From assembly GCA_902635045.1 (NCBI GenBank), contig CACPMT010000001.1:218993-282992 (forward strand): a stretch of 64,000 nt of DNA, in the 5' to 3' direction. Source of the stretch: an uncultured SAR86 cluster bacterium. Its GTDB lineage: Bacteria; Pseudomonadota; Gammaproteobacteria; Magnimaribacterales; AG-339-G14. A program made the position numbers and the translations under genes. The stretch's first letter is position 1, and every line of letters starts with the position of its first letter. Below, piece by piece: positions 8,932 to 12,925 of the stretch. A model generated the notes under the pieces. That model had not been told where the DNA came from. It saw nothing but the letters and a program-made list of their open reading frames with translations, and did no database searches.

Positions 8932-9405
8932 TTAAATTTTTTTTGAAACTAGTATAGGGTAGGAAGATGATACTAATATTAAACCACAGCAAATTAATAC
9001 CCAGCCAGGAATAGAAATGCCCATAAGACTCCACATAACTTCAGCACAATTGCCATCACCTATAAATAGCATGCTTAAAGCATCAGCAAAATAAGATTTA
9101 TCAATTAGATAGGCAAGATCTGGTCCGCAAGTTGGTACTTGATCCGCCGGTAAAGATTGTAGATATAAATGCCTAGTGGCTGAGGCTGCACCGCCAGCAC
9201 TAAAAAATGCAGTGAGTCCAAAATAAACTTTTGGATATTGATTATGGATCAGTCCAATGAGGGCTGCCAAGCCAGCCAGAGCGACAGCAATGCGTTGAAT
9301 AATACACATTGGACAGGGCTCTAAGCCCAAAGCATATTCCATATAATAAGCAGTACCAAGCAAGGCCAGACAAAAAACCAATATAAAAGTAAGGGCTATT
9401 CTCAT
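8932..9405 (-). CDS. dsbB: Disulfide bond formation protein DsbB
   Basis: Inner-membrane quinone reductase that reoxidises DsbA. The 157 residues contain four hydrophobic helices. The first periplasmic loop has the redox pair in PCPMCIIQR (about 31-39), and the second loop has the second cysteine pair: PTCGPDL (about 93) and GNCAEVMW (about 119). Length and cysteine spacing are as in the family. The partner DsbA is encoded at 13.6 kb. The gene is monocistronic and divergent from polA. Confidence 0.95.
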   Translation of the reverse strand: MRIALTFILVFCLALLGTAYYMEYALGLEPCPMCIIQRIAVALAGLAALIGLIHNQYPKVYFGLTAFFSAGGAASATRHLYLQSLPADQVPTCGPDLAYLIDKSYFADALSMLFIGDGNCAEVMWSLMGISIPGWVLICCGLILVSSSYPILVSKKI

Positions 9406-9458: not shown

Positions 9459-12200
9459 ATGGTCAAACCAGAAAGCACTTCAGATAACGACGCCGTCATT
9501 TTGGTGGATGGTTCGTCTTATGTTTATCGTGCTTATCATGCGTTGCCACCGCTTTCGACTTCGACTGGTCAACCAACTGGCGCAGTCAGAGGCGTCACCA
9601 CCATGGTGATGCGAATTTTAGAAGATCATCCAGACAGTCCAGTGGGCATGATCTTTGATGCTAAAGGTAGTACTTTTCGACACGATATGTACGATCAGTA
9701 CAAAGCCAACCGGCCACCTATGCCAGATGATTTGCGCCCACAAATCCAACCTATTTATGACATTTGTGAAGCTTTGGGGTTGAAGATTTTTGTTGTTGAT
9801 AATGTCGAGGCGGATGATGTGATTGGCACTTTGGCCACTCAAGCAGAAGCGCAAGGTATCAAGACGGTGGTTTCGACGGGCGATAAAGACCTTGCGCAAC
9901 TGGTTACTAAAAATATTCGTTTGGTTAATACCATGAGTAATGAAGTTTTGGATGAAGCGGGCGTAATGAAAAAATTTGGCGTCAAACCAAATCAAATCAT
10001 CGACTATTTAGCTCTAGTTGGCGATACCTCAGATAATATTCCAGGCGTACAAAAAGTCGGCCCTAAAACAGCTGTGAACTGGTTAACTAAATACGAAACC
10101 GTTGAGAATATTATTACCAATGCTGAAGAAATTTCAGGCAAGGTTGGTGAATATCTTCGTGAAGGTATTGAACAATTAAAACTCTCCCAACAACTTACGA
10201 CCATTAAAAAAGATGTGGAATTAGATTTTGGTATTAATGATTTGAAAGTTGGTAAAAGAGATACTGATAAATTACACAAGCTTTTCACTGACCTAGAATT
10301 TAAAACACTTATTAAAAGTGCTACTGCTAAAGAGAAAGCCAAACCAACAAAAAAAGAATACGTTGCACCATCAACAGAAGAACATGTTCCGCCAAAAGCT
10401 GTCGATTCAAAATACCAATGTATTTTAACTGAGAAAGATCTTGATGCTTTGATAAAAAAATTATCCAAAGCAAAAATTCTAGCTCTTGATACCGAAACCG
10501 ATGGGCTTGATTTTACTGTGGCAAATTTAGTTGGTATTTCAGTTTCAGCTAAAGCTGGTGAAGCGGCTTATATTCCTATCCAGCATGACTATGAAGGTGC
10601 GCCCAAACAACTTTCAAAAAAAATGGTAATTGAAAAATTAAAACCCTTGCTTGAAAAAGTACCGGTAGTCGGTCAGCACATAAAATTTGATCGCAATGTT
10701 TTAGCTCAACACGGTTTGGAATTAAATAATATCGGTAGCGATAGCATGCTGATGTCCTATGTCCTTGACTCAACGGCAACTCGACATAATTTAGACGCGA
10801 TGGCTAAGTTTTATTTGAACTACGAGACGACAACTTATGAAGAAGTTGCTGGCAAAGGCGTCAAACAAATCACATTCAATCAGGTGAATTTAGAGAGTGG
10901 CAGCCATTATGCTGCAGAAGATGCAGATATTACTTTTCGTTGTTACGAATTATTAAAAGAAAAGCTTTCCCAAAAACCCGAGTTAGAAAAAGTGCTGTCT
11001 GAAATTGATCTACCAATGATTAAAGTTTTGTCAGAGGTTGAACAAAACGGTGCATTGATCGATCCAGACGTTCTGAGAATTCAATCCAACAATTTGGGGC
11101 AACGCATCAGCGGCTTGGAAGAAAAAGCTTTCAGTGAAGCTGGCAAAGAATTCAATTTGGCATCTACCAAAGATCTACGAGAAATATTTTTTGAGGAAAT
11201 GAACATGCCGGTAATGAAGAAAACGCCAGGCGGTCAGCCATCTACCGATGAATCGGTATTGCAAGATCTGGCAAGAGATTATGAACTTCCCAAAATTTTG
11301 TTGGAACATAGAACACTAGCAAAACTTAAAAATACTTATACCGATAGTTTGCCAGAGCAGATTTCACCAAAGACAGGCCGCATACACACTTCTTATCTAC
11401 AAGCTGTTACAACAACAGGAAGATTATCTTCAGCAGATCCAAACTTGCAAAATATTCCCATTAAAACCGAAGAGGGACGAATGATTCGTAACGCTTTTGT
11501 GGCGCCTAAGGGACAAAAACTTTTATCAATTGATTACTCGCAAATTGAATTAAGAATTATGGCTCATCTTTCTAAAGACAAAGGAATGATTTCGGCATTT
11601 CAAAATGGAGAAGACATTCACTCAGCGACAGCTGCAGAAGTTTTTGGAAATCCTGGAGAGGCCGCCTCTGAAGAAGACAGACGCAGTGCCAAAGCCATTA
11701 ACTTTGGTCTTATCTATGGCATGTCCGCTTTTGGCTTGGGCAAAGCTTTAGGCATCCCAAGGAATATGGCGCAAGAATATATCGATTCTTATTTTTCCAA
11801 ATATCCAGGTGTGAAGCTGTATATGGAACAAACCAAAGAAATCGCTCGAGAAAAAGGCTATGTCGAAACCTTGTTTGGACGAAGGCTATATTTACCAGGC
11901 ATTCATAGTGGTAGAACGAGACAAGCGGCAGAAAGAGCGGCAATTAATGCCCCGATGCAAGGTACGGCAGCAGATATTATGAAAATTGCCATGATTAATA
12001 TTCAAGATTGGTTGGAAAAAGAAAAGATAAAAGCAAAAATGATTTTGCAGGTGCATGATGAAGTTATTTTAGAAGTGGCCACCAAGGAGGCTGATTCGGT
12101 GGCAACAAAAATTTCAGAAATTATGTCAAAGGCAGCCAAACTAAGCGTGCCTTTGGAAGTTGAGAGCGGCATTGCCGATAATTGGGGCGAAGCACACTAA
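9459..12200 (+). CDS. polA: DNA polymerase I
   Basis: Repair and Okazaki-fragment polymerase. Three domains are visible: N-terminal 5'-3' exonuclease (about 1-290; VDGSSYVYRAYHALP, DNVEADDVIGTLA, GVPGIP-like helix-hairpin), a 3'-5' exonuclease with intact acid residues (about 320-500; ALDTETDGLDF, DSMLMSYVLD, AAEDADITF) and the family A polymerase (about 520-913; SIDYSQIELRIMAHLS, RRSAKAINFGLIYGMS, LQVHDEV). At 913 residues it is full length. It is followed by a structured 113-base gap and convergent engB, the usual gammaproteobacterial neighbourhood. Confidence 0.98.
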   Translation: MVKPESTSDNDAVILVDGSSYVYRAYHALPPLSTSTGQPTGAVRGVTTMVMRILEDHPDSPVGMIFDAKGSTFRHDMYDQYKANRPPMPDDLRPQIQPIYDICEALGLKIFVVDNVEADDVIGTLATQAEAQGIKTVVSTGDKDLAQLVTKNIRLVNTMSNEVLDEAGVMKKFGVKPNQIIDYLALVGDTSDNIPGVQKVGPKTAVNWLTKYETVENIITNAEEISGKVGEYLREGIEQLKLSQQLTTIKKDVELDFGINDLKVGKRDTDKLHKLFTDLEFKTLIKSATAKEKAKPTKKEYVAPSTEEHVPPKAVDSKYQCILTEKDLDALIKKLSKAKILALDTETDGLDFTVANLVGISVSAKAGEAAYIPIQHDYEGAPKQLSKKMVIEKLKPLLEKVPVVGQHIKFDRNVLAQHGLELNNIGSDSMLMSYVLDSTATRHNLDAMAKFYLNYETTTYEEVAGKGVKQITFNQVNLESGSHYAAEDADITFRCYELLKEKLSQKPELEKVLSEIDLPMIKVLSEVEQNGALIDPDVLRIQSNNLGQRISGLEEKAFSEAGKEFNLASTKDLREIFFEEMNMPVMKKTPGGQPSTDESVLQDLARDYELPKILLEHRTLAKLKNTYTDSLPEQISPKTGRIHTSYLQAVTTTGRLSSADPNLQNIPIKTEEGRMIRNAFVAPKGQKLLSIDYSQIELRIMAHLSKDKGMISAFQNGEDIHSATAAEVFGNPGEAASEEDRRSAKAINFGLIYGMSAFGLGKALGIPRNMAQEYIDSYFSKYPGVKLYMEQTKEIAREKGYVETLFGRRLYLPGIHSGRTRQAAERAAINAPMQGTAADIMKIAMINIQDWLEKEKIKAKMILQVHDEVILEVATKEADSVATKISEIMSKAAKLSVPLEVESGIADNWGEAH

Positions 12201-12216
12201 GCAGTGAACTTTTTTC

Positions 12217-12312
12217 AAAGGAGCTATGTCTAAAGACTTTCTCCTAAGAAAACTAAGGAATCTTCCTTAGAGCCCATTGATACTCTCTCTCCTCCTTTTT
12301 TGTCAATGGGCG
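12217..12312 (+). ncRNA. Candidate structured sRNA, polA-engB intergenic
   Basis: The 113-base gap can fold into three consecutive hairpins: AGGAG...CTCCT enclosing GTC-taaa-GAC (12219-12245); CTAAGGAA-tc-TTCCTTAG (12253-12270); and GCCCATTGA...TCAATGGGC (12272-12311). The last loop contains CTCTCTCTCCTCC plus a T run, i.e. an anti-Shine-Dalgarno-like, CU-rich single strand. In Enterobacterales and Vibrio this locus encodes Spot 42, and in Pseudomonas ErsA. There is no sequence similarity to Spot 42 that I can see, and the strand is a guess from the CU-rich loop and locus. Alternatively the hairpins are just the shared terminator region of two convergent genes. Confidence 0.35.
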
Positions 12313-12313
12313 C

Positions 12314-12925
12314 TTAGGCGGATTCCACCCAAGATAAAATGTTCTTTGTCAGCTGTTCCACGCCATCATGCGTCTTGGCAGAAAACAATAGCGGTTCATT
12401 GAGTAACTTCAAATTTATCAATTCTTTTTTACTCGCCGATAAAACGTTTAATCCTTGGTTACGAGATAATTTATCGGCCTTGTTCAGTAACAATTGGACT
12501 GGGAGATGGTATTGCCTACACCAAGCTAAAAAATCTTGGTCAGCTTTCTGGAAGGGGTGTCTGATATCCATGATCAAAATAATGCCGCGTAGTGATTCTC
12601 TTGAATTCATGTAATTCGTAATCTGCCGACCCCAATCTTTTTGCATTTTTTTTGATGCTTTGGCATAACCGTAACCTGGCAAGTCAACGAGTTTATAGTC
12701 AACGTCACTATTGATGCTGAAAAAATTAATGGATTGAGTTCGACCTGGGGTATTGGAGGTTTTCGCCAGTTTTTTGGAGTTCGCTAAAGCATTGATAATG
12801 CTCGATTTACCCGAGTTTGAGCGGCCGCAAATGGCTACTTCGTTGCCAAAATCCTCAGGATATAGCTTAGCCTCAGTACAAGCCGATAAAAACTCTATAT
12901 TCAAATAACTACTTTTTCTATTCAT
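12314..12925 (-). CDS. engB: Ribosome-biogenesis GTPase EngB/YsxC/YihA
   Basis: Essential TRAFAC GTPase that acts on large-subunit assembly. GTPase motifs are present: P-loop GRSNSGKSSI (about 34-43), the TPGRTQ switch I, DLPGYG (G3), NKAD (G4) and FSAKTHDG (G5). The length of 203 residues is normal. The gene is convergent with polA, as in most gammaproteobacteria, and divergent from cytochrome c4. Confidence 0.97.
   Translation of the reverse strand: MNRKSSYLNIEFLSACTEAKLYPEDFGNEVAICGRSNSGKSSIINALANSKKLAKTSNTPGRTQSINFFSINSDVDYKLVDLPGYGYAKASKKMQKDWGRQITNYMNSRESLRGIILIMDIRHPFQKADQDFLAWCRQYHLPVQLLLNKADKLSRNQGLNVLSASKKELINLKLLNEPLLFSAKTHDGVEQLTKNILSWVESA

Follow-up and report, generated by a model that had tools for sequence, protein, structure and literature searches.

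The gap between the polA and engB genes of an uncultured SAR86 bacterium very probably contains a gene for a small RNA, predicted to be transcribed from a sigma-E-type promoter, and the best reading of this element is an ErsA/sX13-like, sigma-E-driven, Hfq-independent predicted small RNA. The RNA is probably trans-acting, and we infer that its loops would block ribosome-binding sites without the help of Hfq. SAR86 is an uncultured surface-ocean lineage with a streamlined genome, and a literature search found no described regulatory RNA for it. The window analysed here is a stretch of 64,000 nucleotides from a 1.1-Mb SAR86 genome whose close relatives are also SAR86 cluster bacteria; for example, engB is 98% identical in the SAR86 relatives AG-337-B16 and AG-337-G20. 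In the window, polA (9459-12200, plus strand) and engB (12314-12925, minus strand) converge on a gap of 113 nt (12201-12313), the same position as that of ErsA, and it is here that the candidate gene lies. The regions behind polA were aligned across one family, whose SAR86 genera are designated g1 to g4. A dsbB-like gene (8932-9405) is found upstream of polA in the window, and in family f2 of the same order (loci such as L097-L113) a dsbB-like gene follows polA almost directly and the small RNA is absent.

The gap holds a sigma-E-type promoter motif that the first-pass annotation had overlooked. A -35 box, GAACTT (12206-12211, plus strand), starts six bases past the polA stop codon and is followed, 16 nt further on, by a -10 box, GTCTAA (12228-12233, plus strand). 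Both boxes are invariant in all 24 distinct g1-g3 sequences of the alignment, while the spacer between them is mostly variable. This arrangement has the form of a sigma-E promoter, as known from RpoE/AlgU promoters. Before rpoE in the same genome stands GAACTT-N15-GTCAAA, which is conserved across the family, with GTCTAT or GTCTAA as variants in g3 and, in g4, the weaker AAACTT-N15-GTCAAA. In the 1.1-Mb genome, the strict pattern GAACTTN{15,16}GTCWAA has exactly two matches, one in the polA-engB gap and one before rpoE, and its reversed control has none. This strict form was used because a relaxed pattern, GAACTT-N15-18-TCTAA, was too loose (12 matches genome-wide vs 5 in the reversed control). 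A scan for sigma-70 promoters gave a plus-strand match at 12153-12182, which sits in the coding end of polA, and the number of matches was not above chance. At the same place, g4 has the promoter-like GAACTT-N15-GTCATA. As a separate observation, the g4 genomes (L282-L284) have a second conserved sigma-E-like promoter, GAACTTCTTTGATGCTTTTGACGTCTAA, before a gene for a TolC-type outer membrane protein, whose Pfam OEP match is just under the cut-off.

The regulatory system that such a promoter would need is encoded in the same genome. The rpoE product is a clear ECF sigma factor, yet it scores below the NCBIfam RpoE cut-off, likewise in all 46 genomes searched. Downstream of rpoE lie an RseA-like gene (Pfam RseA_N, E 1e-4, just under the cut-off) and then a gene for a DegP-like protease, and an envelope-stress system is therefore present. 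Sigma-E would be the factor that reads the gene in the gap, the promoter motif being common to it and to rpoE.

By the convention of placing the start 5 nt (range 5-7 nt) after the -10 box, the RNA would begin at about 12238; with its predicted 3' end it would span 12238-12318 on the plus strand, about 81 nt, and in g1 and g2 its conservation extends to GC(G/A)CTTAG, even in the absence of engB. When the whole gap is folded as RNA, three hairpins form (-34.7 kcal/mol; z -3.85 against 200 dinucleotide shuffles on the plus strand, and -2.83 on the minus strand). The first-pass annotation had described three hairpins filling the gap; the fold itself is reproduced and hairpins 2 and 3 are conserved, but the first hairpin (AGGAG..CTCCT) is not part of the predicted RNA: it spans the promoter spacer, most of it precedes the predicted transcript, and G004/G005, g2 and g3 lack it. 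The predicted transcript folded alone (12238-12319) reaches -28.5 kcal/mol with a z-score of -5.5, equalled by no shuffle, and its minimum-energy structure, which consists of a closing stem, hairpin 2 and hairpin 3 with an 18-nt loop, makes up 66% of the ensemble.

From the 5' end, the predicted RNA starts with an unpaired C/U stretch, UUUCUCC (12238-12244), whose last two bases are paired in the closing stem; TTCTCCT is kept in every g1-g3 row of the alignment. The closing stem joins CCUAAG (12243-12248) to CUUAGG (12313-12318) in the minimum-energy folds of the window's own RNA and the g2 RNAs, and its 3' side, which shares its positions with the opposite-strand end of engB, is kept as (C)CTTAG in g1 and g2 (CTAAG in G008), even without an adjacent engB. 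It should be mentioned that this stem occurs only in g1 and g2, is absent in g3, has one mismatch in G008 and is without covariation. Because this stem extends to 12318, within the final codons of engB, the span 12201-12313 proposed at first is too short on the right; compared with the predicted RNA, it is also too long on the left. Hairpin 2, CTAAGGA-ATCT-TCCTTAG (12253-12270), has its stem in all 25 g1-g3 loci with some changes of pairs, and its loop is C/U-rich in some relatives. Hairpin 3 (12272-12311) has its stem at 12272-12282 and 12301-12311, and its loop at 12283-12300 is the C/U-rich, anti-Shine-Dalgarno-like CTCTCTCTCCTCCTTTTT, exactly as first described and the presumed site of mRNA pairing. 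This loop is C/U-rich in every row, with a length of 18, 13 or 11-12 nt, and reads UCUCCCC in g2, g3 and two g1 genomes. The stem below it is CCCATTGAT/ATCAATGGG in g1 and g2 vs CCCGTCAGC/GCTGACGGG in g3, with compensatory changes at five of the ten pairs, one of which is altered again within g3, to CCCGTCGGC/GCCGACGGG in G018. The check by covariation that had been proposed thus found compensatory changes between genera, and the earlier suggestion of an sRNA gene where Spot 42 and ErsA lie has good support.

Well-studied bacterial sRNAs often act with Hfq, as ErsA does on several of its targets (PMC8575079). A profile search for Hfq was negative in all 46 genomes of the order, 27 of which are at least 90% complete, and the same model detects the protein in E. 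coli and the other controls. An Hfq pull-down, one of the checks suggested at first, is probably inapplicable because no Hfq is detectable in the order. There is a resemblance to the anti-Shine-Dalgarno sequence in the exposed C/U stretches of the RNA (UUCUCC at the 5' end; UCUCCUCC or UCUCCCC in the loop), and an anti-Shine-Dalgarno mechanism of the loop is plausible. With start sites not curated, Shine-Dalgarno-like tetramers stand in place before only 12 of the 62 longer frames of the window (6 at a control distance), and the loop could therefore select a minority of mRNAs. In a working model, (i) envelope stress would cause the RseA-like anti-sigma factor to release sigma-E (RpoE); (ii) sigma-E would transcribe both rpoE and the sRNA from their matching promoters; (iii) the RNA of about 80 nt would fold into two hairpins, closed in g1 and g2 by end-to-end pairing; (iv) the exposed C/U stretches, namely UUCUCC at the 5' end, the large loop of hairpin 3 and, in some relatives, that of hairpin 2, would pair with G-rich or Shine-Dalgarno sequences; and (v) this pairing would block the translation of a subset of mRNAs without Hfq, as sX13 does in Xanthomonas.

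Searches with target motifs yielded no conserved mRNA target. For the g1 loop, target sites (AAGGAGGAG) showed no excess over the control, one of them being located at the ribosome-binding site of a gene for a 122-aa protein (L303). For the UCUCCCC loops there were 147 sites vs 54 in the control, an excess explainable by ordinary ribosome-binding sites; some of these sites belong to the antisense strand of the sRNA, and among the target loci that were read no gene recurred. This outcome, together with the resemblance of the g1 loop CUCCUCCUUUU to the 3' end of 16S rRNA, would fit an RNA that is real and sigma-E-driven but acts on a protein or on the ribosome, by titrating a factor or by mimicking the 16S anti-Shine-Dalgarno sequence, and not on chosen mRNAs. 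We regard this as unlikely, since the UCUCCCC loop of g2, g3 and two g1 genomes is not an exact anti-Shine-Dalgarno sequence, and C-rich-loop relatives of known function pair with mRNAs (PMC3771888).

The preferred reading, an sRNA gene with a promoter of its own, also draws on the cases in which the element is found apart from its usual neighbours. In g2, where other genes follow and engB is not adjacent, the right boundary of the element is still GC(G/A)CTTAG (CTAAG in G008). In G051, a member of g3, an inserted phytanoyl-CoA-dioxygenase-like gene (L074:2259-3074) separates polA from the promoter; promoter and RNA remain together, about 830 nt from polA and behind this gene on the other strand. 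In other words, promoter and RNA are one movable unit, independent of both polA and engB. A covariance model built on g1 and g2 detects a single copy in each genome, with no second one, and picks up the G051 copy and the g3 copies only weakly. Under stricter filters, with which weak matches may be lost, it finds no copy in the other families of the order, where the region behind polA is filled by other genes or is without a sigma-E motif.

These cases bear on the possibility that the hairpins are a shared bidirectional terminator or a 3' UTR structure of polA and engB, with no separate RNA. The two genes do converge, and hairpin 2, read on the minus strand, leads into a terminator-like TTTTCTT, although one such match was found where shuffles give 1.1. 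On the other hand, the element is kept where engB is not adjacent (g2) and where another gene separates it from polA (G051), it is preceded by an invariant promoter, and hairpin 3, with its 18-nt loop and without a U-run, is unlike a terminator, so that the chance of this explanation appears small. Since hairpin 3 is followed by no U-run in g1 and g2, no intrinsic terminator is visible there; the g4 RNA at the same place ends in a classical terminator, CCCCGGGCCACCCCAATGTCCGGGGTTTTTTT. Another possibility is that an sRNA is cut from the 3' UTR of the polA mRNA and that the promoter-like boxes are incidental. The RNA does lie on the same strand as polA and directly behind it, and RNAs of this kind are known from other bacteria. 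This origin nevertheless seems quite improbable, because the boxes match the rpoE promoter in a pattern that occurs nowhere else in the genome, and in G051 they stand with the RNA well away from polA, behind the other-strand gene. Finally, a small peptide of 14 codons on the plus strand (MSKDFLLRKLRNLP) or 15 codons on the minus strand (12254-12307, MGSKEDSLVFLGESL) is highly improbable and was rejected, because, although both frames are present in the window with G-rich stretches upstream (AAGGAGGAG 11 nt before the minus-strand frame), the plus-strand frame, whose start falls within the promoter spacer, is not preserved in relatives, that on the minus strand has shifted in G004/G005 and differs in g2, the length changes of the loop are not multiples of three, and the g1-g3 alignment contains no conserved reading frame within the RNA. 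The minus-strand frame arises from the complement of hairpin 2 and the loop and is probably due to chance.

How does the SAR86 sRNA compare with known RNAs? At both gathering and relaxed thresholds, the window and those f1 loci that were searched gave no relevant Rfam match, and the covariance models of ErsA/Pseudomon-1 (RF01719), sX13 (RF02232) and Spot 42 (RF00021) did not match the SAR86 RNA. The E. coli RNAs MicA, RybB and MicL are transcribed from sigma-E promoters, depend on Hfq and have known outer-membrane targets. They belong to the sRNA arm of the envelope stress response, as the SAR86 RNA would, but they are encoded at other loci and have other sequences. PMC12153292 cites these three sRNAs. 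Spot 42 (spf) of the Enterobacterales and Vibrio shares the position between polA and engB and differs in having no Rfam match with the SAR86 RNA. It is controlled by CRP, not by sigma-E, and the likeness to Spot 42 and ErsA that had been drawn at first stands for ErsA, which is sigma-22-driven, and extends to the Xanthomonas sX13, but does not stand for Spot 42. Spot 42 is an Hfq-dependent regulator of carbon metabolism (PMC3771888).

Two RNAs come closest. ErsA (Pseudomon-1) of Pseudomonas is likewise a stem-loop sRNA, located in the polA-engB gap (PMC8575079) and driven by the sigma-E homologue AlgU/sigma-22 (PMC5819304); it differs in its sequence, which has neither a sequence nor a model match with the SAR86 RNA, and in its Hfq-assisted action, whereas the SAR86 RNA would work in an order without detectable Hfq. 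The sX13 RNA of the Xanthomonadaceae also adjoins polA and has an unpaired 5' end and hairpins with C-rich loops, and it works without Hfq through these loops on G-rich mRNA motifs (PMC3771888). The SAR86 RNA has the same C-rich apical loops and free 5' end next to polA, with two hairpins in about 81 nt, whereas sX13 has three hairpins in 115 nt; moreover, the passages of PMC3771888 consulted name no sigma-E promoter for sX13. Position, promoter class and loop chemistry thus agree, an agreement that does not extend to demonstrable sequence homology.

A survey of 89 loci behind polA (L165-L253) in other families of the Gammaproteobacteria, with one locus for almost every family, places these likenesses in a wider setting. 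Within 350 nt downstream of polA, the strict motif GAACTT-N15-17-TC[ACT]NA is present in 14 of the 89 loci. Four of the 89 were cut in the wrong register at the stop codon and are counted as lacking the motif. Shuffled sequences gave a mean of 0.32 (maximum 2 in 100), and the minus strand gave one match. Where engB was detected in convergent orientation within 600 nt (22 loci), nine carry the motif. In most motif-bearing loci the motif is followed by several hairpins, with loops such as CCTCCCT or similar, and by a terminator at the end. The model of anti-hemB (Burkholderia RNA 7, RF02837) matches most of them at E-values of about 1e-7 to 1e-2, below the gathering score, and one further locus, L214, above it (58.4 bits); some survey loci also weakly match ErsA/Pseudomon-1, sX13 or ar14. 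Thus, the anti-hemB model recognises C-rich RNAs behind post-polA sigma-E motifs in many other families, but it does not recognise the SAR86 RNA. These observations suggest that the post-polA sigma-E motifs and the C-rich-loop RNAs behind them form one class-wide family.

It is tempting to speculate, and we do so tentatively, rating it somewhat below an even chance, that the polA locus of the Gammaproteobacteria held an ancestral sigma-E-driven sRNA with C-rich loops, of which ErsA, sX13, anti-hemB and the SAR86 RNA are divergent descendants, and that it persisted in SAR86 after Hfq was lost, with one of only two strict-motif sigma-E promoters (the other being that of rpoE) in a streamlined 1.1-Mb genome. 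ErsA, sX13 and anti-hemB, which were described separately in different bacteria, are linked here through one locus and one type of promoter. In 2013 the authors of the sX13 study pointed out that Spot 42 and ar7 RNAs occur at the polA locus and raised the question of whether other bacteria encode such RNAs there too (PMC3771888); for many families the survey indicates that they do, and the sigma-E promoter is a further finding. If the reading proposed here is true, the retention of a stress-driven sRNA in an Hfq-less genome of 1.1 Mb would represent a compact form of post-transcriptional control without the usual chaperone.
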